From assembly GCF_947331435.1 (NCBI RefSeq), contig NZ_CAMZOF010000001.1, forward strand, positions 868,001 through 932,000: 64,000 nucleotides of DNA, given 5' to 3'. The position numbers were made by a program, and so were the translations under genes. The notes under the pieces were generated by a model, which saw nothing but the letters and a program-made list of their open reading frames with translations, did not search any database and had not been told where the DNA came from. The DNA is from Pelagibius sp. Alg239-R121 (GTDB lineage Bacteria > Pseudomonadota > Alphaproteobacteria > Kiloniellales > Kiloniellaceae). Shown here one piece after another: positions 10,892 through 47,417 of this stretch. How positions within the stretch are numbered: the first letter of the stretch is position 1; each line of letters starts with the position of its first letter.

Positions 10892-10901
10892 CTAAATGAT
10901 A

Positions 10902-10954: not shown

Positions 10955-10963
10955 GGAAGTTGA

Positions 10964-12004: not shown

Positions 12005-12115
12005 CAGGGAGGTTTTAAGGCAGAAAGAACGGAGCGAATTGTCTGGGGAGGGAAACCGGAAAAACTGTTCGGACAGATCATTTGGGTAAGTAAGTTATTT
12101 TAGGGGCGTCACGAT

Positions 12116-12649: not shown

Positions 12650-12678
12650 GCGGATTGCCCTCGCACGGGTAGGTGTCC

Positions 12679-12727
12679 AGCCTGAATTGCAGTTTTCAGT
12701 GACTCAGTGAAACGATCAAACACGAGG
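12679..12727 (+). repeat. Dispersed palindromic repeat, degenerate copy 3
   Basis: Core GCCTGAATTGCAGTTTT...TCAGTGAAACGATCAAACAC matches copy 2 over most of its length, but the right CTCTAA end is lost. It lies between the convergent thpR and EamA transporter genes. Confidence 0.6.
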
Positions 12728-12743
12728 GCTCCAATCGTATTGA

Positions 12744-13634: not shown

Positions 13635-14122
13635 AACCTGCTGCGCAGATGGTCGAGTAATCCGGTCATGCCTTCCTCGATGAGATCAAGCATAGCTTCA
13701 TAATCTTCCGGCCCCCCGTAATAGGGGTCCGGCACGTCCTGACCTTGCAGCGGCGGTTCGGCGTGGTCCAGGAAGAGCTTCAGGCGGTGCTCTTCGCCGG
13801 ACGGACACCTGCTCTTCAGGATCTCCATATGTCCTCGATCCATGACCGAAATCACATCGAAGTTTTCAAAATCTTCCCGGGTTAGCCGCCGGGCACGCAG
13901 GCCGGTCAGATCATAACCGCGCTTCGCACAGCATCGCACCGCACGGGGGTTTGGCGGTTCGCCGGTATGGTAATCGTGGGTGGCAGCGGAATCGATCGTT
14001 ATTCTGTCTGCCAGTCCTGCTTCGGCGAGGCGGTGGCGCAAAACGCCTTCCGCGGAAGGCGAGCGACAGATATTTCCTGTGCAGATGAAGAGAACCTGGA
14101 GCGGGGTCACACGAAACCTCAT
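13631..14122 (-). CDS. Low-molecular-weight protein-tyrosine phosphatase
   Basis: A 163-residue LMW-PTP. The P-loop CTGNICRS (CX5R-S) is followed by P-S-A-E-G, and the general-acid region is DPYYGG near residue 128, so both catalytic elements are intact. Family roles include control of exopolysaccharide tyrosine kinases and stress functions. The ATG at 14122 is chosen because it starts shortly before the beta-1 strand; upstream in-frame codons would add an unconserved extension. It lies divergent to the sirtuin gene and is translationally coupled to the EamA transporter. Confidence 0.92.
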   Translation of the reverse strand: MRFRVTPLQVLFICTGNICRSPSAEGVLRHRLAEAGLADRITIDSAATHDYHTGEPPNPRAVRCCAKRGYDLTGLRARRLTREDFENFDVISVMDRGHMEILKSRCPSGEEHRLKLFLDHAEPPLQGQDVPDPYYGGPEDYEAMLDLIEEGMTGLLDHLRSRL

Positions 14123-14274
14123 ACTTGATGCCGGTAGGGAAATCTCCTTCGATGGCCAGGAAGCCGCCGAAGCATTACCCCGTGCTGCCAACACCCATCC
14201 TGGATGCCTTTTTGAGTAGGTCGTCGTCTGGGACGGCACGGACGTCGGGCGCAACTCTGTAGGAAAACTGTAAT

Positions 14275-14991
14275 ATGAGCAAGTCAGTGGTCATCCTCAC
14301 CGGCGCCGGAATCTCGAAAGAATCCGGGCTGGACACCTTTCGCGACGCCGACGGCATCTGGGCAAAGGTTCGGCTTGAGGACGTGGCCACGCCCGAGGCC
14401 TTTCAGCGTGACCCCAACCGGGTGCACGCCTTCTACAATCATCGCCGTGACGGTCTTATGCACTCCAATGTACAGCCCAACGCGGCGCACCGGGCCTTGG
14501 CTCGCTTGGAGGCCGAATGGCCCGGCGATGTTCTTCTGGTAACCCAGAATATCGACGATCTGCACGAACGTTCCGGCTCATCAAAGCTGCTTCACATGCA
14601 CGGCGAGTTGCTGAAGGCCAGGTGCCTTGCCTGCGATGCCGTCATGGAGTGGCGTTCGGACATGAGCGGGCAAAGCGAATGCCTGCACTGCGGTGCGCCG
14701 GGCGGCTTGCGGGTCGACGTCGTTTGGTTTGGGGAGATGCCCTATCATATGGAGCGGATTTATCATGCTTTGGCAAACTGCGATCTCTTCATCTCGATTG
14801 GAACCTCAGGCAGCGTTTATCCTGCCGCTGGTTTCGTCGAGGAGGTTCGCCGCTATGGCCGTCCGTCCGCACAGACCGTTGAGCTTAATCTAGAGCCGTC
14901 CGACGGCGCCAGTCTGTTTCACGACTGTATCCATGGTCCGGCGAGCGAGGTGGTCCCTGCCTACGTCGAAGAATTGCTCGAGACCCGGTAG
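14275..14991 (+). CDS. NAD-dependent protein deacylase (sirtuin, CobB-like)
   Basis: A 238-residue Sir2-family enzyme that removes acyl groups from lysines using NAD+. Visible are the NAD-binding GAGISKESGLDTFRDADGIW, the TQNIDDLHERSG motif, the catalytic His in HMHGEL, two zinc-binding CxxC pairs (CLAC and CLHC) and the GTSGSVYPAAGF segment. The length fits class III bacterial sirtuins. The ATG has AGGAAAA upstream. Its 3' end overlaps that of the convergent SufR-like regulator gene by 31 bp. Confidence 0.95.
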   Translation: MSKSVVILTGAGISKESGLDTFRDADGIWAKVRLEDVATPEAFQRDPNRVHAFYNHRRDGLMHSNVQPNAAHRALARLEAEWPGDVLLVTQNIDDLHERSGSSKLLHMHGELLKARCLACDAVMEWRSDMSGQSECLHCGAPGGLRVDVVWFGEMPYHMERIYHALANCDLFISIGTSGSVYPAAGFVEEVRRYGRPSAQTVELNLEPSDGASLFHDCIHGPASEVVPAYVEELLETR

Positions 14992-15656
14992 GCGCAGCGC
15001 CGCGCGCCACTCAACAGATGTTCGACGCGTTCGAGTTCAACGCTGGGGCCAAGCGCAGCCTGAAATACCGAGAGCTCGGCTGTACAGATTCCCGTACAAT
15101 TCTTTGCGGCTGCGCAGATCGGGCAGTGGTTCTCCACAAAGAGAAGGTCGCCGTTCTCCTCTATCAAAACCTCGGCCATGTAACCCTCATCGCTGCGCGC
15201 TTTGGCCAGGGCAGTAAGTTTGTCTTTCAGGCTGCCGAAATCTTTGATTACCGTCCGATAGTTGGCGATCTGGCTTTCCGAGCGTCCGGCAATCAGCTGC
15301 TCCATTGCGCCCTCACCGAAAGTGGTGCGGATGGATGCAATAAGTTCTACGGCCAGATCCGCATGACGGTCGGGGAAGAGGCTGTTGGCCTCCGGGGTGA
15401 GTTGCCAGCATTTGACCGGCCTGCCCGCTGTGGGCTTGTTGCTGGCCTCGCCGGCTCCTTCGCCGATTGTTTCGCGGGCCATGTTCTCCTGGAACACCAG
15501 TTTCTGGTCGAAGAGATCGTATAGATGCTGTCGCACCGCCATGGGCGTGATCGAAAGCTCGATAGCCAGCGCCTGAGCGCTTTGTGGTCCCTGCCGTTTG
15601 AGCAGATCCAGGATTGCCTGCCGAGTCTTGATTGTCTTCGTCGATTTGTCCGCCAT
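14961..15656 (-). CDS. SufR-like Fe-S transcriptional regulator (DeoR/ArsR-type HTH)
   Basis: A 231-residue protein with an N-terminal winged HTH (residues about 8-55, ITPMAVRQHLYDLFDQ) and a C-terminal cysteine cluster: Cys178, Cys181, Cys187, Cys191 and Cys221 (CPICAAAKNCTGIC ... ARRCAY). This layout matches SufR-type repressors, whose cluster senses Fe-S or redox status. The start ATG at 15656 is preferred over 15707, which would add 17 unconserved residues. It is divergent from the Rieske fusion gene across an AT-rich spacer with two matching near-palindromes, probable autoregulatory operators. It is not next to a suf operon, so it probably controls the Rieske gene. Confidence 0.82.
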   Translation of the reverse strand: MADKSTKTIKTRQAILDLLKRQGPQSAQALAIELSITPMAVRQHLYDLFDQKLVFQENMARETIGEGAGEASNKPTAGRPVKCWQLTPEANSLFPDRHADLAVELIASIRTTFGEGAMEQLIAGRSESQIANYRTVIKDFGSLKDKLTALAKARSDEGYMAEVLIEENGDLLFVENHCPICAAAKNCTGICTAELSVFQAALGPSVELERVEHLLSGARRCAYRVSSNSST

Positions 15657-15690
15657 AGACTTCAGGTATAGGTTTTCGGGGCATATTTCT

Positions 15691-15752
15691 AAAGAAAAAT
15701 CTTGCAAAAAAGAGGCAATGATCTCAATTTAAGTTTATAAAGAAAAATCTTT
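15691..15752. promoter_or_regulatory. Twin operator-like repeats between SufR-like and Rieske genes
   Basis: AAAGAAAAATCTT occurs at 15691-15703 and again at 15739-15751, 48 bp apart in the same orientation. The second extends to the dyad AAAGA-AAAA-TCTTT; the first has a single mismatch. Their position in a short divergent promoter region suggests binding sites for the adjacent SufR-like regulator. Confidence 0.6.
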
Positions 15753-15777
15753 TGTAAATAAGCAGGAGGACGGATCC

Positions 15778-17364
15778 ATGACGTTTGTGCGGGCGGGCAG
15801 CTACAGCGAACTCTCGGAAAAAGGATCTGCACTCGTGCGGCTGGAGGGCAAGCAAATCGTCCTCTTTGACGGGCCAAAGGGTGTTTTCGCCTGCAATAAT
15901 CGTTGTCCTCATGAAGGTTTTCCCCTCAAGGAAGGTAAGCTGACCGACGGCTGTATCCTGACCTGCAACTGGCACAACTGGAAATTCGATCTGGAGTCTG
16001 GCGACACACTGGTGGGCGGCGACAAGTTGCGGCGCTACCCGGTACAGATCGACGGAGATGAAATCTGGCTCGATCTTACCGAACCACCTCAGCAGGAAAA
16101 GGTCGCATCGGCCGAAGCCAATCTGCGTGAGGCTGTCGATAAACATGAGTATGACCGGATTGCCCGAGAGCTCTCGCGCCTCCGGCTGGCTGGTGCCGAT
16201 CCCTTGGAGGCCCTGCGCAAGGTGATTGCCTGGCAGCATGATCGTTTCGAGTTTGGTACGACCCACGCCATTGCCGCAGCGCCGGATTGGCTGACGATCC
16301 GCGCACGCTTCGCCGTGGAAGACAAGGATGAAGCCAGCGACGCCGCGACTCTGGTTCCGTTGGTCGAAAGCATCGGTCACTTGGCTTGGGACGCTTTGCG
16401 TGAACCTCGATTTCTTTTTGGGGAAGGTGTGGCGCCCTACGACGCCGAAGCATTCGTTGCTGCGATCGAGGCAGAGGATGAAGATCTCGCCGTAAGTCAG
16501 CTACGTGGCGCCCTGGCAGACGGAATGACCTTCGCCGACCTGGAACCGGCCTTCGCGCAGGCCGCGCTGGCGCATTACGCCGACTTTGGCCATTCAGCCA
16601 TCTATGTCCTGAAAACCGGCCAGTTGATCGAAGCACTAGGCCCTGCGGTCACCGAACCTTTGCTTCTCGCGCTTACACGCTCGATCATCTATTCCAGCCG
16701 AGAGGATCTGCTCCCCGAATTTCGCCATTACGCAGTCGTGCTTTCGCGCTGGGCAGAAGCGGGGGTGCATAAGGTCGAACCCATGGATTTCGTCGGCTTA
16801 AGCGTGGAGCAAGCACTTGAGCGGACCTTGCAGTCCGGAGGCGCACCCGCGCAGACCTATCAGGCTTTGCTCGGTGCTAATGCCCATAACCTTCTGACTT
16901 TCGATCTCTCTCTCCAAGGCCGGACTGAAGGGGCGATTTCGAACAACGTTTCCTGGCTGGATTTCACTCATGGTGTGACCTTCTCAAACGCGGTTCGCCA
17001 TCTCTGCGGTAAATACCCGGAACTTTGGCCTCAGGGGCTTCTTCAGATGGCCTGTTTTGTCGGACGCAATACACGTTTCATCGACCGCAATGCCGATACC
17101 GGATCATGGCGGGTGAACGATGCTGAAGCATTTACACGCCAGAATGTCGAAAACCTGCTCGATCACGGCCAGTTCGAATATATCGTCGCCTGCCATCAGG
17201 TGAAGCTGATCATGGCGATTGAGGACGAACTCGCAGCGGCGCCTGATCCCAAAGTCGGCGAGACTTTGCTGGCCGGGCTGAATCGTTTTCTCAATTCACC
17301 GCTGAAACGGCGTCACAGCCTACGCACCGCAAAACAGGCCATGTCTTTCGTTGCCAGCGAGTAA
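15778..17364 (+). CDS. Rieske [2Fe-2S] domain fused to a histidine-rich helical domain
   Basis: A 528-residue protein. Residues 1-100 form a ferredoxin-type Rieske domain with complete ligands C43-P-H45 and C63-N-W-H66 separated by 17 residues. Residues about 115-528 form a long, mostly helical region I do not recognise. It contains several conserved-looking His clusters (QHDRFEFGTTH, HYADFGH, GANAHN, WLDFTHGVTF, VACHQVK) suggestive of a metal or cofactor site. There is no signal peptide, so it is cytoplasmic. An oxygenase or redox enzyme with a built-in electron donor is a reasonable inference. The ribosome-binding site AGGAGGA is strong. It is divergent from the SufR-like regulator. Confidence 0.8.
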   Translation: MTFVRAGSYSELSEKGSALVRLEGKQIVLFDGPKGVFACNNRCPHEGFPLKEGKLTDGCILTCNWHNWKFDLESGDTLVGGDKLRRYPVQIDGDEIWLDLTEPPQQEKVASAEANLREAVDKHEYDRIARELSRLRLAGADPLEALRKVIAWQHDRFEFGTTHAIAAAPDWLTIRARFAVEDKDEASDAATLVPLVESIGHLAWDALREPRFLFGEGVAPYDAEAFVAAIEAEDEDLAVSQLRGALADGMTFADLEPAFAQAALAHYADFGHSAIYVLKTGQLIEALGPAVTEPLLLALTRSIIYSSREDLLPEFRHYAVVLSRWAEAGVHKVEPMDFVGLSVEQALERTLQSGGAPAQTYQALLGANAHNLLTFDLSLQGRTEGAISNNVSWLDFTHGVTFSNAVRHLCGKYPELWPQGLLQMACFVGRNTRFIDRNADTGSWRVNDAEAFTRQNVENLLDHGQFEYIVACHQVKLIMAIEDELAAAPDPKVGETLLAGLNRFLNSPLKRRHSLRTAKQAMSFVASE

Positions 17365-35725: not shown

Positions 35726-36448
35726 CTAGTATCGGATGAAGGGATTGAGCAGCCGTCCCAGCCGCCCGGTCAATTTGATCGGTGCGTCTGTGATAATCAG
35801 GCAAACACAGGCTTCGTCTGGCTCCGCCGTCGGCTGATGATCGACATCACCATCTGCAATCTGGACGTCACCCCGCGCAAACCGGCCTGAGCCATCCTGA
35901 TAGGCGCCGGTCAGCACGAGCGTCAGCTCTTCGCCCTGGTGGCTGTGTTGAGGCATGGCCGCGCCAGCCGCGACCTTGATCAGCCGGACGTTAAATTCGG
36001 GTCCCGAGACCTTCAGTTCCGCCTCTTCGAGTCCGCGGATGACCGGGCGCCAAGTGACGTCCCGCAAATCACTGCCAACGTAGCCACGTAAAGGTTGCGG
36101 CAGCAAAACTTCTCCGATCTGCCTGTCCGGGGCAGAATAGGAACTTGGGTGCTGAACTACGTTGTTGGCGGGCATTTCTTCCTGATCGAGCCGGGCTAGA
36201 ACTGAATCCAGTGATCCAGCGCGCATGGATTCCGGCGCGATTTCTTCGAGAAACGACGCGCCGACTGCTTCGAATTCAGCAATTGCAGCGCGGCATTCAG
36301 GACAAAGCGCGGAATGGGTTGCGACCAGTAATGATTGTGCTTCCGACAGGTTTCCGGCCGCATAAGCCGCAAGCAGTTCATCGGTCACATGATTCGTGGG
36401 TAAGGTATCGTTCGAACCGTCACGTCCGTGGATTGAAGGCGATGTCAT
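35726..36448 (-). CDS. ChrR-like zinc-binding cupin anti-sigma factor
   Basis: A 240-residue protein with an N-terminal anti-sigma zinc-binding domain containing H-x3-C-x2-C (HSALCPECRAAI, residues about 47-58) and a C-terminal cupin domain (HSHQGEELTLVLTGAYQDGSG, then DGDVDHQP). This is the ChrR architecture of Rhodobacter: it holds the partner ECF sigma factor inactive until singlet oxygen or oxidative stress. Its ATG overlaps the stop of the sigma gene by ATGA, so the pair is translationally coupled. Confidence 0.92.
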   Translation of the reverse strand: MTSPSIHGRDGSNDTLPTNHVTDELLAAYAAGNLSEAQSLLVATHSALCPECRAAIAEFEAVGASFLEEIAPESMRAGSLDSVLARLDQEEMPANNVVQHPSSYSAPDRQIGEVLLPQPLRGYVGSDLRDVTWRPVIRGLEEAELKVSGPEFNVRLIKVAAGAAMPQHSHQGEELTLVLTGAYQDGSGRFARGDVQIADGDVDHQPTAEPDEACVCLIITDAPIKLTGRLGRLLNPFIRY

Positions 36449-37041
36449 GGTGCGCCCTCCTTTAACTCTTTACGAAGATGACCCAATGCCAATCGCAGTC
36501 GCGATTTCACCGTTCCGAGCGGTAGGCCGGTCTCCTCAGCTATGGCGCCGTGCGCCTTGTCTCCAAAATATGCCATCTTAATCAAAGTTGCCTGCTCGGA
36601 GGAAAGGCGGCTGATCGCAGCTTTCAAGCGCCTCGCATCCTGTTGTTCTTCTATAATGTCGTCGGCCAAACTTTCCGACTGCGGAACCAGGGCCGGATCT
36701 TCAAGGTCAATCTCTGGGCGCTTCTCGCGCCGTATTGCATCAATCCGCTTGTTCCGTGCGATCGTGAAGATCCACGTACTGACCGCCGCTTGACTCGCAT
36801 CAAAACTGGCAGCTTTCCGCCAGACCATGATCATCGCCTCTTGAACCAGTTCTTCGGCTTGATCCGCATCTGACCCAAGCCGCATGAGGTAGGCTTTCAA
36901 CCTGGGCGCAAAGTAGCCGAAAAGGGCCTGGAACGACGTTTTGCAGCGCTGCTCGGCTATTTTGCTGACAAATGTCACCAATTCAGGTGCCGTCAAAGGC
37001 TCTGAAGGCCGTGTTTCTTTTGCCGTCGGTTCCTGCGTCAT
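36445..37041 (-). CDS. ECF RNA polymerase sigma factor, RpoE/ECF11-like
   Basis: A 198-residue ECF sigma factor with region 2 (FQALFGYFAPRLKAYLMRLG and DQAEELVQEAMIMVWRKAASFD) and region 4 HTH (LSSEQATLIKMAYFGDKAHGAIAEETGLPLGTVKSRLRLALGHLRKEL). With the coupled ChrR-like cupin anti-sigma it forms the module that responds to singlet oxygen in Rhodobacter. The ATG at 37041 gives the family's usual length; an in-frame ATG at 37197 is judged an overextension. I could not identify a convincing self-promoter. The product is inferred from architecture. Confidence 0.92.
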   Translation of the reverse strand: MTQEPTAKETRPSEPLTAPELVTFVSKIAEQRCKTSFQALFGYFAPRLKAYLMRLGSDADQAEELVQEAMIMVWRKAASFDASQAAVSTWIFTIARNKRIDAIRREKRPEIDLEDPALVPQSESLADDIIEEQQDARRLKAAISRLSSEQATLIKMAYFGDKAHGAIAEETGLPLGTVKSRLRLALGHLRKELKEGAP

Positions 37042-37308
37042 TGCCCCATCAGACGCGATAATCGCAAAGGCGGCAAGCGATCTCACGGAACCAAACAGGG
37101 CGACTGGACGTGTGATGGCGGTTTTCACACTATTTTCAACGAGTGTATGCATTACAGAAGGGTGTACGAGCCGTGGATCGACTTGGATCAGCTTCATCGA
37201 TGAACGCAGGTGTTTTTCTCGAGAGATTTTTGCGTTAAAGCGTTGGGCGTACGAAAATTCCTGAGATCAAGGGGTAGCGAACGGCTAAACGCCGTCTATA
37301 ATAAAGCT

Positions 37309-37842
37309 ATGACTTTACACGCAACGCTGCGAGCGACAATGGCTGGATTGCTGGCATTGCCGCTCTTTTTTACACTGGGTGTCACAGCATCGGCCCAGGG
37401 AATCGAGCGCCTTGGTGATTTCCAGGATTGGAGCGCCTACCGCTTTGTCGAGGATGGCAAGCCTGCCTGTTACATGGCTTCTGTGCCGAGTAAGTCGGAG
37501 GGCGAGTATTCAAAACGTGGTGACATTTACGCACTTGTGACGCACCGGCCTGCCGAATCCCGCCGTGATGAGATCAGCTTCGTTGCGGGCTATCAGTACA
37601 AAAAGGGCAGCCCGGCGACAGTGATTATTGGCGATACTACGGAAGAGTTCTTTACTCAGAACGACGGCGCCTGGGCGCCAGACCATAATTTGGATAAAGC
37701 GATGGTTCAGGCCATGATTCGCGGCAGTTCCATGCAGGTCAAAGGTACGTCTTCCCGTGGCACGCTGACAACCGACACCTATTCGCTTAAAGGCTTTACG
37801 GCAGCGTATCGGGCGATTTCGAAGAGTTGCGGCGTCAACTGA
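37309..37842 (+). CDS. Invasion-associated locus B (IalB) family periplasmic protein
   Basis: A 177-residue exported protein: signal peptide LLALPLFFTLGVTASA|QG, then the IalB-type domain with FQDWSAYRF, the Cys in KPACYMASVPSKSEG, RGDIYALVTHRP, EISFVAGYQYKKG and a C-terminal Cys (SKSCGVN) that would pair with the first. IalB family proteins are common in alphaproteobacteria, and the invasion role is proven only in Bartonella. TATAAT at 37299 is only five bases from the ATG, so it is not its promoter. It lies divergent from the sigma factor gene. Confidence 0.88.
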   Translation: MTLHATLRATMAGLLALPLFFTLGVTASAQGIERLGDFQDWSAYRFVEDGKPACYMASVPSKSEGEYSKRGDIYALVTHRPAESRRDEISFVAGYQYKKGSPATVIIGDTTEEFFTQNDGAWAPDHNLDKAMVQAMIRGSSMQVKGTSSRGTLTTDTYSLKGFTAAYRAISKSCGVN

Positions 37843-39097: not shown

Positions 39098-40435
39098 TTA
39101 AAAAACATCGACCAGGAACGGAACGCGGAATGTCACGAGGACATCGGGGGCATCAGCGGTTACGCCCAGTTCCAGATTCAGGTTTGCCGCGACGTTTTCG
39201 TCGTATTGAAAGCTGTAGCCCAGCAGCATGGAACCTACATCCAAAGAATTGGTCGAGAGGGTTACACCGTTGATCTCGGTTTCCGTCTCTCCGATAAAAT
39301 CGTGTTTGTAACCCAATGTGAAAGAAGACCGTTCGTTGATTGAATAGGCCATCCCGAAGCTGATTCGGTAGGCGTCGCCGGGATCGACATCACCGATGGT
39401 TTGATCGTTGAACGTCTCGCCGACATCGTCAGGGATCGTATAGAGATAACCCAAGTTGGCGAAGAAGACCGCCGGATCGGACGGGTAGAGCACGGTGACG
39501 CTTGGTTCTACCGAATGAAAGCCGGAGCCGGTCGGCAATTCCGTTTCCAGGCCGTTGGCGTCCCTGCCCACGTCGAAGGGGCCGGTTCCGGTTGTAGATT
39601 TGTAGCGCAAATTACCGATGAAGATCGGCCAGTCATTCAGGCCGCTATTGAGCTGATAGTGAGCGGCGAGCTCGATGTCGCCCAGACCATTGCCGTCAAT
39701 CTCTTGGGTAATAGTCTGATTGGGATCAACCTGGGGAATCACAAAGCTGACGCGATCGTTACGGACCACGTAGGGAACCTTGAGTTCAAGTTCGAGCCTG
39801 TCGGTAACCCCGAGCCGACCGGTGAGTGCCGGTGTAAAGAGATCCCGGTCGGTGTCTTCGGCTTCAAGCAATCCGATCAAAAAGGTGTCCAGGATCTCGA
39901 TGCCCAGGAAGGTGAAGCGATTGACCTGTGAGTGCGAGTACTGAATTGAGGGTTCGACCACCAAGGTGCCAGCCGGCGTCAGAACACCACCTAGTTCGGG
40001 AATCGCCTGAACCTCTGGAATTTTTCTTTCCGGCTTCGCTGGCGGCTTACCGACCGGTTGCTGTTCATTTTGTTGGGCACTCTGAATGTTTGGCTGCCTG
40101 TCTCGCGCCCCGGGCGCTGGTTGAAAAGCATCGTCGGAGAGGCCGGTCGCACTATAATTGAGCCGCAAATTGGGATCTGGTGAGCGCCCGCCACGGCTCT
40201 GTGAGAGGAGCTGTTCCTTCAAGTAGTTGATTTCCTGACGCTGTTGTTCAAGCGCCCGCTCGAGCCTTGCGAGCTTGGCCTCAAGAGAAAGGCCTGCCGA
40301 CTCCGTCGCCGGACGTGTTTCGTCGACGCCTTGAAGCGTATCTGCCGTCGCCGTAGGCAGTGTTTGGGCCGATAGCTGCCCCGTTGGAATTGAGAGCACT
40401 GAAACTGTAATTGCAGCGGCGGATTGCCATTTCAT
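39098..40435 (-). CDS. FapF-like outer-membrane beta-barrel with N-terminal coiled coil
   Basis: A 445-residue exported protein. It has a signal peptide (cleavage near LSAQ, residue 24), a short coiled coil (residues about 49-79, LEAKLARLERALEQQRQEIN), a disordered Pro/Gln linker, and a barrel from residue about 145 that begins IPELGGVLTPAGTLVVEPS and ends in the aromatic VPFLVDVF. The barrel matches the PF13557 phenol_MetA_deg-type fold, and the lead-in EVGGVLTP-GTLVLEPS-type sequence is the pattern I associate with FapF, the amyloid secretion pore of Pseudomonas. FapF has the same coiled coil-linker-barrel order. It lies divergent from the LuxR-type gene across an AT-rich region. FapF identity is inferred. 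Confidence 0.75.
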   Translation of the reverse strand: MKWQSAAAITVSVLSIPTGQLSAQTLPTATADTLQGVDETRPATESAGLSLEAKLARLERALEQQRQEINYLKEQLLSQSRGGRSPDPNLRLNYSATGLSDDAFQPAPGARDRQPNIQSAQQNEQQPVGKPPAKPERKIPEVQAIPELGGVLTPAGTLVVEPSIQYSHSQVNRFTFLGIEILDTFLIGLLEAEDTDRDLFTPALTGRLGVTDRLELELKVPYVVRNDRVSFVIPQVDPNQTITQEIDGNGLGDIELAAHYQLNSGLNDWPIFIGNLRYKSTTGTGPFDVGRDANGLETELPTGSGFHSVEPSVTVLYPSDPAVFFANLGYLYTIPDDVGETFNDQTIGDVDPGDAYRISFGMAYSINERSSFTLGYKHDFIGETETEINGVTLSTNSLDVGSMLLGYSFQYDENVAANLNLELGVTADAPDVLVTFRVPFLVDVF

Positions 40436-41342
40436 CTGCTACCCCCTCTTCATCAATAGTCTAAATTTCGATATTCCCCGCCGATTTTTTGTGAAAAACA
40501 AAACAGTATTATCAATGGATTATACCCTCGTAAGAGGAATTTTCCATCGTTTTAATTTTACTTTAGAGATGCTTGCTCCAGCTATAAAAAAGCGCAGGAG
40601 TGTAATATTTTTGGTCATAAAAATTAGATGTCTGTGTGTTTCATCAAGAGCTGATTTAAATCTCAAGATCGAAGATGTCGAAAAAATTTACAATCTGGAA
40701 TCGTTAACCTCTTATACCATAAGTGGTTCAAAAGAATGTCTATCTACCTTCGGACTACGTGTATCGTCTGCTGATAACATGATTTGTATTTGTAAAATTT
40801 CTTTACAAATATGGTTAACAAGCATCGATATTAAATATTAAATCGTTGTTTTGTAAAGATTTAAATTTTTGGCACAATATTTGCTATTATATATCCATAA
40901 AAATAGCAAACAGTCGATTGCTACGTAAAAATTCCTAATTTGCGAGTCTTTTAGGAATTCTAGTAAAAAGCGCAGTATCGACCGTGCAAAGAGGTCACAG
41001 CTATGTATCTGCTTTGACAGATAGGCTTGATGTGCCTCGGCGTGCACAGAATTGCCGTTTGCTCCAACCTCACTGCGCGAAGGCGTCGGTGCGCTTGGCC
41101 GTTGAACCGATGGGGTTCTCGGCAGTGCGGCCCGTTGCCCGGTTTGCCCAACCTAACTGCGTGTCACATATGTGATGGCGCTCCGATAGGATCGTGTCCT
41201 GCCGTGATCTGCGCGAATTCCATCAAAAGGAGAATTCAGCATCACTGGAGGGAACGGCAAAGAAATTAAAACACGCTTCGAAAAAAGATAAGAAAGCGAA
41301 ACGACTCAGGGGTGGAAAGGAGAAACGTTCGGGGCAGAGAAA
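40436..41342. other. AT-rich 0.9 kb intergenic region
   Basis: No convincing gene is present. The part 40480-40980 is strikingly AT-rich compared with the flanks (runs such as ttttaattttacttt and aaattttggcac), while 41000-41340 returns to normal GC. A 116-residue ORF (40491-40841) is open only by AT composition: it has no ribosome-binding site or recognisable domain. It separates the FapF-like gene from the LuxR gene and probably carries divergent promoters and silencer or regulator sites. Confidence 0.6.
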
Positions 41343-42647
41343 ATGTTGGAACCCAGATACTACCAAAGTGCCGACGGCGAGTTGGCGGCGCTCTTGGCTA
41401 GCTTTTACGAAGCGGCCGCTGCGCCCGTGACCTGGTCGCAGGCTGTGCGGTCGGTCATGGAGTCATCGCGTGCGACCGTCGGGCTTATCGTATCGCATGA
41501 TTACGAAACCGGGCGCGGTCGCATTGAGCACGCAGAAAACATCACTGACGAACTGGTGACCGCCTACGCTGAAAACAGTGCGCCTGCCAATGTTTGGTTG
41601 CGTCAGGAAAGCTTGTTTCGCAGCGCCGATGCGGTGGTTGCAGGCGAAGAAGTTGTTACGGCCGACGAATTGGTGGCGACTCCGTTTTACAAAAATTGGC
41701 TGGTCCCGGCAGGCATTCATCATTCTGTTTGGGGCGTGTTGGCGCGGAAGGACAAGCGCCTTATCTGCGCTGGCTTCGGCCGGCCAAACAGCGCTGTTGC
41801 CTTTGAACGAAATGATATTGCCTTGATTTCCCAGGTCATGCCGCATTTTCGAAGGATCATGCAGTTGCGAGAGCTGGTCGGAACTTCGAATGTTTCGCAG
41901 CGCATTCTCATGGAGATGCTCGGCGCCCTGTCGGTCGGCGTTGCGCTTTTGGATAAAGACTTCAGGGTCATGGAAGCCAATGCGATGGCAGCCGGATGGC
42001 TGGCGAACGAGCATGATATTGTTCTAAACGGCAAGGATCCTGGCGTCACCCACAACGGACTGAGGACAAACCTGCAATCCTTGTTGAAATCTGCGAATGC
42101 GCATTCGACGGCAACGAGCTCAGGTTCTTCTGAGGCGGGCATCTTTTCTGCCGACGCCCCTATCAATGGTGCAGCAGCACTTGGGGCTCGAAAAATGTCG
42201 GTGATAAGGGCAGATGGGGCTGAGCCGGTCACATTGATTTTGGTTCCGCTCCGAAACGCTGTCGACGTTTTCGATCAGGGACAATCCGGTTCGATCCTGG
42301 TCATCAGCGACCCGGAGTATCGCTGCCGGATCCGCGAGGACCAATTGGTCAAATTCTATGACTTCACGCCCACCGAAGCGAAGCTGGCCAGACTGTTGTC
42401 AAACGGTTATCGCCTTGATCAGGCTGCAAGTTCAATGGGCATCAGATATCAAACCGCACGGACACATTTGAAACGGGTTTTCTCAAAAACCGGCATTGAT
42501 CGTCAGTCCGAGCTTGTGCGCCTGATACTGACCGGTCCAGCGTCATTCAGATTACCGGATTCTGCTGCGGAAGGATGGCTTCGGGCACAACATGCCGATC
42601 TCAGGCATGAGCGCAGCCGAACACCTGAGGAGCCCTTCGACCGCTAA
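41343..42647 (+). CDS. LuxR-type transcriptional regulator with N-terminal sensor region
   Basis: A 434-residue regulator. The C-terminal LuxR/GerE HTH is clear (residues about 345-400, FTPTEAKLARLLSNGYRLDQAASSMGIRYQTARTHLKRVFSKTG). The N-terminal half has the two-part layout of a GAF/PAS-like region (residues about 1-180) and a PAS-like segment near MEMLGALSVGVALLDKDFRVMEANAMA. It lacks an autoinducer-binding LuxR domain, so a direct quorum ligand is not evident. It is the only regulator in the secreted-protein locus and is likely to control it. AAAGGAG lies upstream of the ATG at a slightly long spacing. Confidence 0.88.
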   Translation: MLEPRYYQSADGELAALLASFYEAAAAPVTWSQAVRSVMESSRATVGLIVSHDYETGRGRIEHAENITDELVTAYAENSAPANVWLRQESLFRSADAVVAGEEVVTADELVATPFYKNWLVPAGIHHSVWGVLARKDKRLICAGFGRPNSAVAFERNDIALISQVMPHFRRIMQLRELVGTSNVSQRILMEMLGALSVGVALLDKDFRVMEANAMAAGWLANEHDIVLNGKDPGVTHNGLRTNLQSLLKSANAHSTATSSGSSEAGIFSADAPINGAAALGARKMSVIRADGAEPVTLILVPLRNAVDVFDQGQSGSILVISDPEYRCRIREDQLVKFYDFTPTEAKLARLLSNGYRLDQAASSMGIRYQTARTHLKRVFSKTGIDRQSELVRLILTGPASFRLPDSAAEGWLRAQHADLRHERSRTPEEPFDR

Positions 42648-42963
42648 ATGTGACGCGCGGATCCAAAACAGCAATCCGATTGCAGAGAGGATTGCCGCTC
42701 GTGTTGCAAGCTGCTGGCGGACGCGATTTGACATGCGGTCAGGTCGTTAAATTCATGAAAGTTCGACGAAAAGCCGTTTTGATCGCCGAATCTCACCCAA
42801 ATGGGGCACGACAACCACAGATACTCCTTCCATTGTTAGTGTTCAAATCTTCTGGAGCGCCAGGAACTTGAATCACTGCTGGGCAATTACACCAGAAATG
42901 ATTCGGCGTCCCGATGCCGTCAGGTAGTGCAGTAGGCATCATCTGAACCTTAGGAGGGACCTT
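42648..42963. other. 316 bp leader upstream of the glycine-rich genes
   Basis: No gene is seen. It contains the probable promoter of the glycine-rich operon and ends with a very good ribosome-binding site (TTAGGAGG) seven bases before the start at 42964. No riboswitch-like fold was recognised by eye. Confidence 0.5.
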
Positions 42964-44115
42964 ATGTTTAAGAGATTGTTGGTAGGGAGTTCGGCGCTTG
43001 CTTTGGTTTTAACCCTTGCGGTCGAAGCATCCGCGAACCCAAAGAACAAGTTTGGTGACGGAAACACCGCAAACGCCGACGCCTTGGCAAACGCCAATGC
43101 CAACGGTGGTAACGGCGGCAATGGCGGCAATGCCAATGCAAACGGGACCGAGGAGTTCCCCGGTGGCACGGCAGGAACCGGCGGGGCCGGTGGGGCTGGC
43201 GGTGCTGGCGGGACAGCTACGGCCTATGCTGAATCCTTCAACGAAGATGTCGAAGTGATTTCCTATCAGTACATGACAGCGACCGTAACTGGTGCACCGA
43301 TCAGGATTATGGGTGGTGACGGCGGACGCGGTGGCAACGGTGCTGCTGGCGGCGATGGTGACTTCGGCGTCGGTGCTTCAGTTGCGATCGGTGGTGCCGG
43401 TGGTGATGGTGCCGACGGTGGTAACGGCGGCGACGGCGACTTCGGTCTCGGCGTCTCGGCCGGCTTGGCCGGCAGTGCTGCAAATGGCGGCGATGGCGGC
43501 GACGGCAATTATGGCGGCGACGGCGGCAACGGCAATGGTAACTCGAACGCAACTGCTGGCGACACCAATTCCGGTCAGAACTTCGGCACAGGCGGCGGCG
43601 CAAACGCCAATGGTGGCGACAGTGGTAACGGTGGTGCTGGTGGTGTAGGTGGTGCTGGAACCTCCGGTGGGAATTCTGCAACCGGTGCGACCGCTTCAGC
43701 CGGACCTGCCAACGGAACCGGTGGTGCCGGTGGTGCCGGCGGCAATGGCGGTAATGCCGGAGCCGGTGGTACTGGTGGCGGTGCGACTTCCGGTGCGGCA
43801 AGCGGCACGGGTGGTGCCGGTGGCGCTGGCGGCGGTGGCGGTAACGGCGGTAACGGTGGTGTGGCCACTGCAGGTGCCGCGACCGGCACGGGCGGTGCAG
43901 GTGGAGCCGGCGGCGCCGGTGGAGCCGGTGGTGCAGGTGCAGGTGGTGCTTTGAATACCGGAGCGGTCACGATTGCGGCGGGTGCCGGAACCTTTGGCGG
44001 TATTGCCAATATCAATGTCTCGTCCGGGTTCTACAACGCGACCCTCGGCGGTGTGTCGGTCGCAGCCCACTCGGGTGTGAACATCGGCAACGTGGCAGCC
44101 GCTGGCGGCCAGTAA
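42964..44115 (+). CDS. Glycine-rich exported repeat protein 1
   Basis: A 383-residue protein. The Sec signal peptide ends in ASA at residue 24. The mature protein is dominated by GGX triplets (GGAGGAGGAG, GGDGGDGN and similar; about 40% Gly) rich in Ala, Asn, Thr and Asp. A non-repetitive island (residues about 85-117, ESFNEDVEVISYQYMTATVT, then GAPIRIMGG) interrupts the first repeat block. A non-Gly-rich C-terminal module (344-383; FGGIANINVSSGFYNATLGG, then VSVAAHSGVNIGN) is shared exactly with the next protein. GGX repeats can form polyglycine-II bundles. The function is probably extracellular matrix or fibre; this is inference. TTAGGAGG marks the start. Confidence 0.82.
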   Translation: MFKRLLVGSSALALVLTLAVEASANPKNKFGDGNTANADALANANANGGNGGNGGNANANGTEEFPGGTAGTGGAGGAGGAGGTATAYAESFNEDVEVISYQYMTATVTGAPIRIMGGDGGRGGNGAAGGDGDFGVGASVAIGGAGGDGADGGNGGDGDFGLGVSAGLAGSAANGGDGGDGNYGGDGGNGNGNSNATAGDTNSGQNFGTGGGANANGGDSGNGGAGGVGGAGTSGGNSATGATASAGPANGTGGAGGAGGNGGNAGAGGTGGGATSGAASGTGGAGGAGGGGGNGGNGGVATAGAATGTGGAGGAGGAGGAGGAGAGGALNTGAVTIAAGAGTFGGIANINVSSGFYNATLGGVSVAAHSGVNIGNVAAAGGQ

Positions 44116-44139
44116 ACGAATAGTGATGGAGAAAACGTC

Positions 44140-45258
44140 ATGTTAAAAAGACTTTTGGCGGGAACGTCGGCTATCGCTCTCGTTCTGGCATTCGCGTCGA
44201 ATGCCTCCGCAAACCCGAAAAACAAGTTCGGTGACGAAAATGTTGCCACGGCCACCGCGACCGCCAATGCCAATGCCAATGGCGGCGAGGGTGGCAATGG
44301 TGGCAATGCCAATGCCAATACTAACGGTGGTACAGCCGGGACAGCCGGTGCCGGTGGCGCCGGTGGCGCTGGCGGAACCGCTACGGCTTATTCGGAATCC
44401 TTCAACTCTGACATCGATGTCATTTCCTATCAGGATATGACCGCGACTGTGACCGGTGCCGCGATCCGCGTTATGGGCGGAAATGGTGGCAATGGCGGCG
44501 ATGGTGCACTAGGTGGTGACGGCGACTTTGGCGTCGGTGCATCTGTGGCTATCGGCGGTGCCGGAGGTGACGGGGCCAATGGCGGTGATGGCGGTGATGG
44601 TGATGTAGGTGCCGGTGTATCGCTTGCCGTGGCCGGTAGTGCCGCCAATGGCGGTGTTGGCGGCGATGGCGAATTCGGCGGCAACGGCGGTGACGGCGAT
44701 GCCAATTCCGATGCTGCCACTGGCAACACCAATGCTGGCAATAACGAAGCTATCGGTGGTAGCGCCGATGCCAACGGTGCTGGCGAAGGCGATGGCGGCA
44801 CCGGAGGAACCGGCGGCAATGGCGATGCCGGAACCAATATCGCAAACGGTGGATCGGCGACTAGTGGTGATGCCACGGCGACCGGTGGTGCCGGTGGCAC
44901 AGGCGGTTCGGGCGGTACAGGTGGTAACGGCGGTGCCGGTGGCACGGCGACGGCTGGTGATGCGACCGGAACCGGTGGTGACGGCGGCCCAGGCGGCACG
45001 GGTGGCAATGGTGGCACCGGTGGAGACGCCGTGGCCAGTACTGCGTCCGGAGTCGGTGGCGCAGGTGGCGCAGGTGGTGCCGGTGGTGCCGGTGGCGCGG
45101 GTCAGGGCGGTGTCCTGACGACAGGACCGGTGAGCATCGACGTTGGTGCCGGGACTTTCGGCGGTATCGCTAACATCAACGTATCGTCAGGGTTCTATAA
45201 CGCGACCCTCGGCGGTGTGTCGGTTGCGGCCCATTCGGGTGTGAATATCGGCAATTAA
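44140..45258 (+). CDS. Glycine-rich exported repeat protein 2, paralogue of protein 1
   Basis: A 372-residue tandem paralogue of the preceding protein. It has the signal peptide MLKRLLAGTSAIALVLAFAS ending ASA, the island ESFNSDIDVISYQDMTATVT with GAAIRVMGG, GGX repeats and the identical 33-residue C-terminal module. Over that module 13 codons differ synonymously and none non-synonymously, so its protein sequence is under strong purifying selection and was not copied recently. It follows the first gene by 24 bp with a GGAG ribosome-binding site, so the two are cotranscribed. It may be the second subunit of the same fibre or coat. Confidence 0.82.
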   Translation: MLKRLLAGTSAIALVLAFASNASANPKNKFGDENVATATATANANANGGEGGNGGNANANTNGGTAGTAGAGGAGGAGGTATAYSESFNSDIDVISYQDMTATVTGAAIRVMGGNGGNGGDGALGGDGDFGVGASVAIGGAGGDGANGGDGGDGDVGAGVSLAVAGSAANGGVGGDGEFGGNGGDGDANSDAATGNTNAGNNEAIGGSADANGAGEGDGGTGGTGGNGDAGTNIANGGSATSGDATATGGAGGTGGSGGTGGNGGAGGTATAGDATGTGGDGGPGGTGGNGGTGGDAVASTASGVGGAGGAGGAGGAGGAGQGGVLTTGPVSIDVGAGTFGGIANINVSSGFYNATLGGVSVAAHSGVNIGN

Positions 45259-45270
45259 TGTCGTGTGAGG

Positions 45271-45316
45271 TTAAGCTGGCGGGATATAGATCCCGTCAGC
45301 CTCCTCAAGTTTTTTC
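45271..45316 (+). terminator. Hairpin after the glycine-rich gene pair (possible attenuator or terminator)
   Basis: GCTGGCGGGAT (45275-45285) pairs with ATCCCGTCAGC (45290-45300) around ATAG with one G-T pair. A T-run (TTTTTT) follows only about ten bases later, so termination efficiency is uncertain. It could lower expression of the downstream genes relative to the abundant glycine-rich proteins. Confidence 0.65.
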
Positions 45317-45384
45317 ACCTCTGTCAAAGACGCGGCATCACCCTGACCAAGAAGGGGTGAACTGCGATTGCCGGGAGTTGTGTC

Positions 45385-45810
45385 ATGAGACGGACCATTA
45401 TCTTACTGCTGGCTGCGGGCACGCTGTTCGTGGGTAGCAAGAGCTTTGCGGGAGACGTTCTGGAAGCGGAACGGCTCGCCAGCCCGATGGTCGGCGCGGG
45501 AGAGTTTGATACCGAGAAGTTCGGTGTTGAAGAGAACGCGTTCGGCGAAGCAGGCGTGGTCAACCTTGAGCAACTGAGCGATCTGCGTGGTCGTGAGGGT
45601 GGCATGTCGGTGACTGTCGCCACGGACCAGGATCTGAATGCGGCCGTAGTTGGTGGCGCCATTACCGCCGACAACTTCACGACGGGCGGCGTCAGTTTCG
45701 GAGAAAATGCCTTCGACAACTTCGGCGGTGTGGGTCTGGTCAACGTGGTGACCGGAAACAACAATGCGGTCGAGGCGGCCATCGGCGTGACCTTCAACCT
45801 TTTAGATTGA
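45385..45810 (+). CDS. Small exported protein with DLRG(xx)GG motif
   Basis: A 141-residue protein with a signal peptide (IILLLAAGTLFVGSKSFAG), an acidic region and the sequence LEQLSDLRGREGG at residues 61-73, followed by a Gly/Asn-rich C-terminus ending LVNVVTGNNNAVEAAIGVTFNLLD. The SDLRG motif recurs in the protein encoded at 46677. The NVVTGNNN... segment resembles the N-V-x-x-G-x-x-N repeat style of Fap fibre proteins and of the shared module of the glycine-rich pair, an inference by eye. No known family was recognised. It lies between the glycine-rich pair and the C39 peptidase. Confidence 0.72.
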   Translation: MRRTIILLLAAGTLFVGSKSFAGDVLEAERLASPMVGAGEFDTEKFGVEENAFGEAGVVNLEQLSDLRGREGGMSVTVATDQDLNAAVVGGAITADNFTTGGVSFGENAFDNFGGVGLVNVVTGNNNAVEAAIGVTFNLLD

Positions 45811-45919
45811 TCGCCTTTCTAATGTTCCCGCCGGAAACTTTTTCGCTGGCGGGCTGCGGTTCCGATATGTGGCCGACGCCTTTGAACGGGGACGCACCGA
45901 TTTATTAAAGGGATTTTTC

Positions 45920-46672
45920 ATGCTCTGGACTCGGTCGCAGAAATGCGAAGGCAATGCCCGGCGTATGGTGCCGGGGCTGCTCCTTCTCCTTCTCTTCCTG
46001 CCGCCCGTTACACTGGGGACCACGGGCGGGCTGCAGGCGGGTGAGACCCGCATGTGGGGAGCCGGTGGCGCCTTCTCGGTCAAGCTTACGAGTCTGAAGG
46101 AGTTACGCTGGAAAACGGTCATTCGCCAGCAGTACGATTTCAGCTGCGGCTCGGCTGCGGTCGCGACTCTTCTGTCCTACCATTACGATACCGCAGTCAG
46201 CGAGGCCGAGGTCTTCGAGGAGATGTTCCTGACAGGAGACCGGGCCAAGATTCAATCAGATGGATTTTCCATGCTCGACATGAAGCGGTTTCTGGATAAC
46301 CGCGGCTTGCAGTCGGACGGCTTTCGCATGACGTTGGACAAGCTCGCGCGGATCGGCGTTCCGGGCATTGTTCTGATCAACACCCGTGGTTACCGCCATT
46401 TTGTCGTGGTGAAGGGTATTGAACGCGACCGGGTCGTGGTCGCGGATCCGGCCTTGGGAACGACCGTGTGGTCGCGGGAAAACTTTGAATCGGTCTGGGG
46501 CGGGGGCATTGTCCTGGCCGCGCGCAATGAAATTGAAACAGCCCGCCTGAACTTCAATGATGCCGAGGATTGGCGTGTCAGGCCCAAATCGCCGATCGGC
46601 GAAGGCGTGGATCGGGCCGGAATCAGTTCCTTCACGCTGCATCTGCCCGGCCGGAACGAGTTCGGGAGATAG
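45920..46672 (+). CDS. Exported C39-like cysteine peptidase, FapD-like
   Basis: A 250-residue protein with a long hydrophobic signal region (LLLLLFLPPVTL, residues 20-31) and a C39-type papain-like domain. The triad and oxyanion residues are visible: Gln70/71 and Cys76 in RQQYDFSCGSAAVATLLSYHY, His160 in GYRHFVVVKGI and Asp176 in VVADPALG. Stand-alone exported C39 domains linked to a FapF-like barrel are a hallmark of Fap loci (FapD). It probably processes or chaperones the neighbouring exported proteins in the periplasm. The ATG at 45920 has AAGGGA upstream; a GTG 51 bases earlier is less likely. It overlaps no gene and is four bases from the next. Confidence 0.85.
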   Translation: MLWTRSQKCEGNARRMVPGLLLLLLFLPPVTLGTTGGLQAGETRMWGAGGAFSVKLTSLKELRWKTVIRQQYDFSCGSAAVATLLSYHYDTAVSEAEVFEEMFLTGDRAKIQSDGFSMLDMKRFLDNRGLQSDGFRMTLDKLARIGVPGIVLINTRGYRHFVVVKGIERDRVVVADPALGTTVWSRENFESVWGGGIVLAARNEIETARLNFNDAEDWRVRPKSPIGEGVDRAGISSFTLHLPGRNEFGR

Positions 46673-46676
46673 TGCG

Positions 46677-47417
46677 ATGGCTGGAAAAGGCCTCTGTTCC
46701 CATCGATCGGCGCCGGTGCGTATTTCCGGATCGCGCAACTCTGGTTCGATTCGACAGGCCGCGCTGGCATTCGGTTGCGGCTTGGCGGTTGCAGGGTTTG
46801 TCACGGCTTTGATACTTCCTGCCCCAACTGCGCAGGCGGATGCGGCTGGACGCGCGTCTCTCAGGGCGGCTCATTTTGGTGCCGGCGCCTCAACCCAAGA
46901 TGATTTCCACGGCCTCGATACAGTCAGTCTCGCCGAGATGTCCGATTTACGTGGCGGCTTCAATGTCGGCGGTCTGGAAATGGCGATCGGGGCGAACATC
47001 CGCACCTTCGTTGACGGTGCTCTTGTGCTCGAATCTGTTGCGCAGGTAAGTCCGTCCGGCCTGATCTCAGAGCTGGTATCTTCAACAGCCTCGCCGCCTG
47101 GCGGCGGTGTCACTTTCAACTTCGGCCGTGACACGGACGTATCGCTACAGGACGTCGCGCCGTCGAACGTTGATCTCGGAGCGCTGGCTGGCGACAACGG
47201 AGTTGCGATCAACGACAGCAATGGCTTTAGTGCAGCACTGCATCGCATTACCCAGAGCCAAATTTTGGGAGTCATAGTCAATACTGCCGATGGCCGCAGT
47301 CTGCGTCAGGAACTGAACATCAACGTGACCGTTCAGAATTTTGGCAGCTTCCAGAAATCGATCCGCAACGCCATCACGAGCGGCCGGCTGATCAACGGGA
47401 TCAACCGCGCCAACTGA
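46677..47417 (+). CDS. Exported hypothetical protein with DLRGG motif
   Basis: A 246-residue protein starting four bases after the peptidase stop, with GGGAG as ribosome-binding site. A hydrophobic segment (residues about 30-53, ALAFGCGLAVAGFVTALILPAP) ends in TAQA, a probable signal peptide with a long basic N-region. Then comes SLAEMSDLRGGF (residues 84-95), a candidate double-glycine processing site matching the small protein at 45385. The rest is beta-rich and polar (ELNINVTVQNFGSF). No family recognised. Its coupling to the C39 gene suggests it is the peptidase's substrate or partner, possibly a minor fibre or FapE/FapA-like component. Confidence 0.72.
   Translation: MAGKGLCSHRSAPVRISGSRNSGSIRQAALAFGCGLAVAGFVTALILPAPTAQADAAGRASLRAAHFGAGASTQDDFHGLDTVSLAEMSDLRGGFNVGGLEMAIGANIRTFVDGALVLESVAQVSPSGLISELVSSTASPPGGGVTFNFGRDTDVSLQDVAPSNVDLGALAGDNGVAINDSNGFSAALHRITQSQILGVIVNTADGRSLRQELNINVTVQNFGSFQKSIRNAITSGRLINGINRAN

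Follow-up and report, generated by a model that had tools for sequence, protein, structure and literature searches.

The Fil system (FilA, FilB and FilC of NCBIfam, where it is labeled a "putative pilus system") is best known from Acinetobacter. Loci of the Fap type (fapABCDEF) encode a FapF-type pore, an exported C39 peptidase (FapD), a precursor (FapE) specified directly after the peptidase gene, and secreted repeat proteins. The catalytic cysteine of FapD, Cys38, is required for secretion (PMC5557850). In 2017, the target of FapD was described as unclear (PMC5557850), and in 2018, as yet to be determined (PMC6173800); the Fap proteins were said to lack a canonical site for C39, and attention was drawn to GG/GA motifs (PMC5557850). 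The fapD-fapF pair as such is not new, since co-located homologues were already noted in five additional phyla in 2018 (PMC6173800). The Neisseria nap island (NapP, NapF and NapABC) also contains a C39 peptidase, a FapF homologue and products with GG motifs (PMC11798529). The present work deals with a locus at positions 39098 to 47417 of a 64,000-nucleotide stretch (the window) from the 8.0-Mb genome of the alphaproteobacterium Pelagibius sp. Alg239-R121. It encodes a FapF-like barrel, a FapD-like C39 peptidase, two glycine-rich exported proteins, and two small exported proteins, here designated E and G.

A preliminary description, made from the sequence alone, had presented this locus as a possible divergent Fap system. 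The kinship with FapF and FapD stands; the identity with Fap is not supported, as the scores stay far below the equivalog cut-offs, the peptidase falls into a sister clade, and no FapA, FapB or FapC match is found. The locus is likely to specify an export system of the FapD/FapF type, from a class that is sister to Fap, in which a periplasmic C39 peptidase processes leader-bearing E and G and the glycine-rich proteins form surface fibers. The double-glycine-type leaders of E and G are absent from the preliminary description and are the new point here. The sister system is real and recurring, and it displays such leaders on small precursors in an unexpected compartment.

Pore, peptidase, and their recurrence

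The barrel protein can be assigned to the superfamily of FapF-, FilC- and NapF-type pores by its match to the solved FapF structure 5o67 over the barrel itself (residues 156 to 440; E = 3.2e-25). It matches the NCBIfam FapF model NF058560 over residues 47 to 440 with E = 2.1e-39 (135.5 bits, below the cut-off of 700) and FilC with E = 7e-17 (61.8 bits, below the cut-off of 630). The score against Pfam family PF13557, whose gathering score is 22, is 21.6 bits in hmmscan (E = 2.5e-4), 21.9 bits in the genome search, and 23.2 bits with neighboring stretches included. Two features that the preliminary description had pointed out are confirmed: a heptad stretch, SLEAKLARLERALEQQRQEINYLKEQLL, scores 4.4 standard deviations above 30 shuffles on a crude custom scale, and the GGVLTP lead-in is real, with a loose version present in 34 of 101 barrels. 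In the Halomonadaceae loci among L042 to L065, and in L161, the pores have approximately 355 to 390 residues and, on the same scale, no N-terminal heptad signal; hence, some members of the family may be able to do without the coiled coil.

The peptidase can be classed as an exported stand-alone C39 protein, with the four catalytic residues, an N-terminal hydrophobic signal, and no ATP-binding cassette (ABC) domain. It matches Pfam C39 (E = 1.6e-22), NCBIfam FapD NF058616 (E = 4.3e-42; 143.9 bits, cut-off 330 not reached), and FilB (E = 1.8e-34; 119.4 bits, cut-off 475 not reached), and its matches to the C39 models of ABC transporters are weaker than these last two (best E, 1.2e-15). The profile comparisons that the preliminary description had proposed for the two proteins, against FapF and FapD, thus support the kinship. 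Gln70, Cys76, His160 and Asp176, the catalytic set noted there, are invariant in an alignment of 14 of 18 C39 sequences (L023, L026, L027 and L032 were left out; an in-frame stop is reported for L032). Among 110 C39 sequences, His and Asp are retained in all, and Gln and Cys in 109, the exception, L046, being cut by a contig end.

A profile scan of genome contigs with the 14-row alignment confirmed at least 586 C39 relatives, the best 80 of which were used. The set of 109 loci analyzed here consists of 91 nonduplicate loci and 18 more from a FapD family search (places with E < 1e-30; the second places of G114, G202 and G230 lie outside these 18), with six duplicates (L039, L058, L063, L066, L067 and L068) excluded. 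Because similarity to the C39 of the window, or to FapD, decided which loci entered the set, proportions within it are not those of nature. The barrel is present in 83 of the 91 nonduplicate loci; the remaining eight are L022 and L023 (both stretches cut short, barrel present in both), L027 (a small contig; the barrel of the same genome lies on another one), L040, L046, L077, L088 and L118. Among 58 genomes, that of Pelagibius included, the barrel is found in 15 and the stand-alone C39 in exactly the same 15, and the co-occurrence of the two exceeds chance; two further C39 matches, in frames of 726 and 742 residues, are of ABC-transporter size. The preliminary description had named the absence of recurrence and a grouping with unrelated proteins as outcomes that would speak against it; with the kinship and the recurring co-occurrence, it passes this test. 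It had also called the gene order different, with the pore gene on the opposite strand. This arrangement is not unusual: the pore and C39 genes are on opposite strands in 58 of the 101 barrel-bearing loci and on the same strand in 43, with no pore seen in the remaining 8 of the 109.

A profile of protein G finds matches in 9 of 289 alphaproteobacterial genomes (that of Pelagibius included), and in each of these the best match lies less than 1 kb from a stand-alone C39 gene on the same contig. Other stand-alone C39 matches in this sample, including those in two Fap loci, are without a G profile match; as scoring was limited to the best 11 or 9 candidates of each genome, some matches may have been missed. 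The profile of E has a single match in its own genome. In G002, a genome of the same genus, the three protein searches found none of the barrel, C39 and G.

Leaders and repeats of the exported proteins

An exported open reading frame (ORF) directly upstream of the C39 gene was picked as E in 89 of the 109 loci; a few picks (L035, L036, L091, L158, L159, and L163 to L165) are fiber or FilA-type proteins. Automated picking gave no E in 20 loci and no G in 10. Among these 10, L041 and L112 do have an RGG-bearing G, and L062 has a transposase-like ORF in its place. An alignment of 43 of the 99 G picks and another alignment of 45 rows, with the window among them, were chosen by hand. In the 43 selected G proteins, the mean column identity is 21%, and the sole invariant residues beyond Met1 are the Arg and the first Gly of an R-G-G segment.

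The 99 G and 89 E picks were not selected by motif. In untrimmed ORFs, the pattern [LM]xxxR[GA][GRKT] is found in 98 of the 99 G proteins, versus 10.3 expected from shuffles (the exception, L156, has LSDMHGK), and in 58 of the 89 E proteins, versus 2.9. A strict motif, [LM]xxxRG within 110 residues past the signal core, is found in 80 G (6.1 expected from shuffles) and 52 E proteins (2.1 expected), whereas the counts are 6 of 101 (6.2 expected) for the barrels, 6 of 108 (7.8) for C39, and 4 of 107 (2.3) for the fiber entries. Many of the misses in G arise from trimmed start codons or long pro-regions. The loose form [LMIVF]xxxR[GA] gives 86 of 99 for G (26.0 expected) and 70 of 89 for E (12.4), versus 24 of 101 for the barrels (29.0), 35 of 108 for C39 (34.8), and 11 of 107 for the fiber entries (11.5). 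With a longer pattern, the figures are 83 of 99 for G, 64 of 89 for E, and 20 of 498 for other signal-bearing genes, a few of these 20 being E- or G-type proteins or members of the WDE family described below. The leader pattern is nearly restricted to E- and G-type proteins.

Position counts, numbered back from the predicted cut, were made on representatives obtained by clustering the mature parts at 50% identity (50 G and 19 E, including the apparently misregistered G of L074, L104 and perhaps L096 and E of L036). Hydrophobic residues occupy position -18 in 25, -15 in 30, -12 in 47, -7 in 50 (fixed by the pattern) and -4 in 33 of the 50 G leaders, and -18 in 12, -15 in 10 and -12 in 19 of the 19 E leaders. 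Other positions average 13% in G and 12% in E, although lesser peaks occur in G at -19 and -13 and in E at -16 and -4. Positions -12, -15 and -18 played no part in the selection of leaders. At -8, Glu is found most often (22 of 50 G and 8 of 19 E).

Leaders of C39-containing transporters have hydrophobic residues at -4, -7, -12 and -15 (PMC7018657). The consensus for ComA includes Leu-12, Glu-8 and Leu-7, and Val-4, Leu-7 and Leu-12, part of a helix, lie in a groove (PMC6363468). The leader pattern of E and G coincides with these published recognition positions. Judged by the usual description of a double-glycine leader (hydrophobic residues at -4, -7, -12 and sometimes -15, with a GG, GA or GS end), the leader of G, which ends in RGG, qualifies and that of E, ending in RG-R, does so in part. 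In small exported proteins, this pattern probably marks a target of the periplasmic C39 peptidase. A third substrate family is possible: 14 small proteins from 13 loci (L024, L025, L026, L028, L030, L033, L034, L036, L042, L049, L054, L055 and L152) share a [VI][VI][LVI]WDE segment (VILWDE-like), and in 8 of the 14, [LM]xxxR[GA], as read by eye, lies upstream of it. No protein with a WDE segment was found in the window.

Profile comparison shows that E and G share a C-terminal repeat (probability 97.5; E = 8.3e-12; 30 columns). The G of the window also aligns with the FapE alignment in hhalign (probability 93.2; E = 2.8e-7) over 37 columns that span the leader and the first mature strand, and has no match to the NCBIfam FapE model at E <= 1. 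Like FapE, it is encoded next to the peptidase gene, on its downstream side. In the AlphaFold2 model of G, with a mean predicted local distance difference test (pLDDT) score of 74 and values of 74 and 67 for the blocks around the leader, a helix (residues 85 to 91) directly precedes R92-G93-G94. The mature part of about 150 residues is predicted to be mostly β-strand (100 to 219), followed by a final helix. A fold search of this model against viral models gave none at E <= 0.001 (best E, 2.6e-3; template modeling scores of 0.16 and 0.27).

The preliminary description had suggested that secreted glycine-rich proteins take the place of FapB and FapC, and the survey supports this. In 47 of the 109 loci, a signal-bearing protein with at least 22% Gly is encoded upstream of C39; by their tails, 24 of these are of the window type (VAAHSxVxIGN), 22 of the VQAN type, and 1 of neither. 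At least one signal-bearing protein with >=15% Gly or >=13% Asn plus Gln is found upstream in 88 of the 109, a count that also covers some proteins of the E and G types and a small number of uncertain ORFs. The window-type proteins have two conserved non-glycine segments (around VISxQxMxSTVTGA and AGTFGGIANMNxSTGxYN) among their GGX tracts. AlphaFold2 on a 25-row alignment gave an uninformative pLDDT of 34 for glycine-rich protein 2; amyloid, polyglycine-II bundles or some other packing are all conceivable for these proteins. Fiber tails from beta- and gammaproteobacteria share the repeat of E (probability 93.7). Their comparison with window-type tails (probability 0.6) or with FapB/C tails (0.2; only the beta/gamma tails were set against these) is not significant. 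The comparison of E with FapB/C is suggestive only (probability 41.6; E = 2.7e-4). At E <= 1, searches of NCBIfam and Pfam gave no family for the two glycine-rich proteins, E or G; which of FapA, FapB and FapC have NCBIfam models was not checked. Cutting of the glycine-rich proteins by C39 at their many GG pairs is not favored, because they lack the leader.

Relation to Fap and proposed mechanism

A tree of 62 C39 rows (quick method, support from the SH-like approximate likelihood ratio test only, rooted on Fil-like rows; starred values are indicated) places the window C39 in a 47-row clade (97, starred), separate from the clade of seven Fap loci and L036 (99, starred) and from that of four Fil-like loci (99, starred); a warning of long-branch grouping applies to L037 and L038 with the Fil-like rows. 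Outside its genus, the closest rows to the window are gammaproteobacterial (Nitrococcus and relatives of Halomonas; 91, unstarred), and four rows from its own family come next (83, unstarred), which hints at horizontal transfer. The glycine-rich label requires three changes on this tree, at least two of them forced by starred branches; here the label clusters but does not have a single origin. In Aidingimonas halophila (L042, positions 7998 to 16531), a system of the glycine-rich class and one of the Fap type are found together within one 17-kb stretch. Their C39 proteins score 130.9 and 284 bits against FapD (cut-off 330), and the latter is followed by a FapE relative of 102 bits (cut-off 250). 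The L049 locus appears to resemble L042 in this respect. Given the scores below the cut-offs, the separate clade, the lack of any FapA, FapB, FapC or FapE model match, and this side-by-side occurrence, the window system appears to be a sister class of Fap and not a Fap locus. Unlike Fap, it has glycine-rich GGX proteins, an extra leader-bearing protein, E, encoded before C39, and a leader that ends in GG instead of GR or GK.

True FapE proteins nonetheless carry a diverged copy of the leader. Three loci from the FapD search score above the FapD cut-off, and two FapE proteins from these match NCBIfam FapE with E values of 7e-104 and 2.2e-104. The FapE leaders (ELATLRG-R and ELAQLRG-K) lie in the stretches KDQELATLRGRY and KDQELAQLRGKY; they end in RG-R/K, and the leaders of the sister class mostly in RG-G. 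FapE peptides were absent for about the first 70 residues (PMC5557850), so the fit with the predicted cut in L149, after residue 39, is partial; a long tryptic peptide past the cut could explain the gap. In L149, L150, L153, L154 and L155, the proteins in the FapA position have a conserved LSDxDFAxVxSG-like segment, which resembles a leader ending in SG or AG; FapA has been reported as unprocessed (PMC5557850).

The Fil system shares its peptidase and pore families with the window, as noted above, and differs in that Fil-like loci form a separate clade and have other small proteins (DUF6160 in L163); no window protein matches FilA in the NCBIfam search. In L163, L164 and L165, the proteins in the FilA position have Lxx[VA]TGQxG a short distance past the signal, which may be the leader in its Fil form; the protein of L163, the only one compared with FilA, matches it with E = 2.5e-15, below the cut-off. 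The products of the nap island, in contrast to those of the window, are small cationic peptides with a role in autolysis, and the available text describes no fiber-like proteins (PMC11798529). Bacteriocin exporters of the PCAT/AMS type have the C39 family and the leader positions -15, -12, -8, -7, -4, -2 and -1 in common with the window. However, in those exporters the ABC transporter has the C39 as a fused, cytosol-facing domain, whereas the window C39 stands alone with its own signal and the leader lies behind a Sec-type signal.

In the mechanism that we favor, all cargo would enter the periplasm by the Sec route, and the barrel would serve as its outer-membrane pore. The two glycine-rich proteins would be the major subunits of a surface fiber. 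E and G would be minor ones, acting as nucleator, cap or anchor, and their precursors would have, after the signal peptide, a second leader of the double-glycine type. Via positions -15, -12, -7 and -4, this leader would be bound as an amphipathic helix by the periplasmic C39, which would cut after RG-G in G and RG-R in E; the cut might release the mature subunit to pass through the pore and join the fiber.

Several observations weigh against this mechanism. Cleavage, secretion and fibers in this class are predictions from sequence. The loose form of the motif is common by chance (26 of the 99 G proteins expected), and because the loci are interrelated and share a selection criterion, their similarity to the C39 of the window, binomial p values overstate their independence. 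In E, position -4 is weak (hydrophobic in 6 of 19), and position -1 is Arg, Lys or Met in 13 of 19 and Gly in 4. The window G, as a single query, was found in 6 of the 15 genomes with the barrel-C39 pair, no G was found beside the pair in L037 and L038, and profile comparison reveals no significant repeat shared by window-type fiber tails and E (probability 2.3). In L037 and L038, the C39 and pore genes are directly adjacent, and large proteins of 563 residues with 17 to 18% Gly, perhaps another type of cargo, are encoded nearby.

The RGG segment might instead act as a signal for docking at the pore or targeting to it, or as the site that a chaperone-like C39 binds, with the peptidase acting elsewhere, e.g., on the pore linker. 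Some C39-like domains do act as chaperones alone (PMC5557850 and PMC6173800), cleavage of FapF was considered by the authors of PMC5557850, and residues 71 to 83 of the window barrel, LKEQLLSQSRGG, past its coiled coil, fit the leader pattern. We regard this explanation as unlikely: the catalytic Cys is retained in every C39 sequence that is not truncated and is required in FapD, the strict motif occurs in barrels at chance level, and RGG sits where C39 leaders are cut. The view of the preliminary description, a true Fap amyloid operon whose FapB and FapC drifted to glycine-rich sequence, seems improbable. It agrees with the shared pore and peptidase families, with a C39-G-pore order that in many loci is like fapD-fapE-fapF, and with the relatedness of G to FapE at the leader, but not with the sub-cut-off scores, the separate starred clades of the quick 62-row tree, the presence of both kinds in one Aidingimonas halophila stretch, or the lack of significant similarity between beta/gamma fiber tails and those of FapB/C.

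The nap island, which pairs C39 and a FapF homologue with GG peptides (PMC11798529), also brings to mind a bacteriocin- or autolysin-like system that releases E and G as active peptides. This is very unlikely, since mature G is far longer than the nap products of 16 to 36 residues (PMC11798529) and predicted to be β-rich, and large Gly- or N/Q-rich proteins are encoded upstream in many loci (107 entries located >900 bp upstream, including FapA, FapB and FapC of Fap loci). That an uptake pore of the PF13557 family happens to lie beside a stray peptidase is suggested by a PF13557 score near its cut-off; the far better match to the FapF model (2.1e-39 versus 2.5e-4) and the recurring neighborhood make the probability of such a coincidence negligible.

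If the favored mechanism of leader cleavage by the periplasmic C39 applies more widely, it might represent a general two-signal route, in which a Sec signal is followed by a double-glycine leader that exported FapD-family peptidases cut before export through FapF-family pores. Such a route would serve Fap (via FapE), Fil (via FilA), nap, and a large sister class with glycine-rich GGX fibers rather than N/Q-rich amyloid repeats; we put this generalization forward tentatively, as a reasonable possibility. Processing of FapE had previously only been hinted at by the missing peptides (PMC5557850), and a family-wide leader that matches the C39 recognition code and is present in FapE as well names the bond to test for FapD. 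The class would extend the cargo of FapF-type pores by secreted glycine-rich proteins, among others those of Halomonas, Cupriavidus, Variovorax and Luteimonas. Titles and abstracts of the open-license PMC literature yielded no report of the glycine-rich class or of the FapE leader motif.

Gene layout and surroundings

The ORF listing has the barrel, C39 and exported protein genes where the preliminary description had put them (Table 1). An RlmN-like gene that ends at 39037 and an ArgG-like gene that starts at 47490, both named from their ORFs alone, flank the locus. Between them lie the minus-strand barrel gene, a LuxR-type gene, and a plus-strand run of glycine-rich 1, glycine-rich 2, E, C39 and G, with gaps of 24, 126, 109 and 4 nucleotides. 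The listed frame of C39 begins at a GTG at 45869. For G, the most likely start is ATG 46677, located 4 nucleotides past the C39 stop and with GGGAG just 5' of it, which gives 246 residues, versus a 286-residue ORF from 46557. Signal peptides of all proteins were assessed by hydrophobicity alone.

Table 1. Features of the locus, in window coordinates
Feature	Position	Strand	Basis
FapF-like outer-membrane β-barrel pore with N-terminal coiled coil (predicted), 445 residues	39098..40435	-	NCBIfam FapF match, solved FapF match, coil score
LuxR-type regulator, perhaps for local control	41343..42647	+	GerE match, E = 7.8e-4, below the GerE cut-off
Glycine-rich exported protein 1, putative fiber subunit	42964..44115	+	35.5% Gly
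Glycine-rich exported protein 2, putative fiber subunit, paralogue of protein 1	44140..45258	+	33.3% Gly; 73% identical
Protein E, 141 residues, putative minor subunit: Sec-type signal, leader, one C-terminal repeat	45385..45810	+	Exported ORF directly 5' of C39
Predicted leader of E, residues 59-70 VNLEQLSDLRGR, predicted cut after codon 70	45559..45594	+	Hydrophobic -12, -7, -4; Arg -3; Gly -2; family pattern
FapD-like exported C39 cysteine peptidase (predicted)	45920..46672	+	Pfam C39, FapD and FilB matches; catalytic residues
Codon of catalytic Cys76 of C39	46145..46147	+	Invariant alignment column
Protein G, putative FapE-like precursor: Sec-type signal, double-glycine leader, β-rich mature domain	46677..47417	+	hhalign to FapE alignment; AlphaFold2
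Predicted leader of G, residues 83-94 VSLAEMSDLRGG, predicted cut after Gly94	46923..46958	+	R92 and G93 invariant in 43 selected G

The LuxR-type regulator is about 62% identical to its counterparts in two loci of the same genus and 29% identical to that of L035. It was considered as a defining part of the system and rejected: at 1e-5, tblastn finds its gene in 4 of the 109 loci (L022, L023, L035 and, weakly, L157). The stretch from 40500 to 41000, between the divergent pore and LuxR genes, is A+T-rich (31 to 32% G+C versus about 55% around it), with some promoter-like matches and no clear gene. Outside the locus, positions 35726 to 37197 of the minus strand encode an extracytoplasmic function (ECF)-type sigma factor and an adjoining ChrR-like cupin/zinc finger (anti-sigma-like) protein, and positions 37210 to 37842 encode a protein of the IalB family (E = 6e-16).

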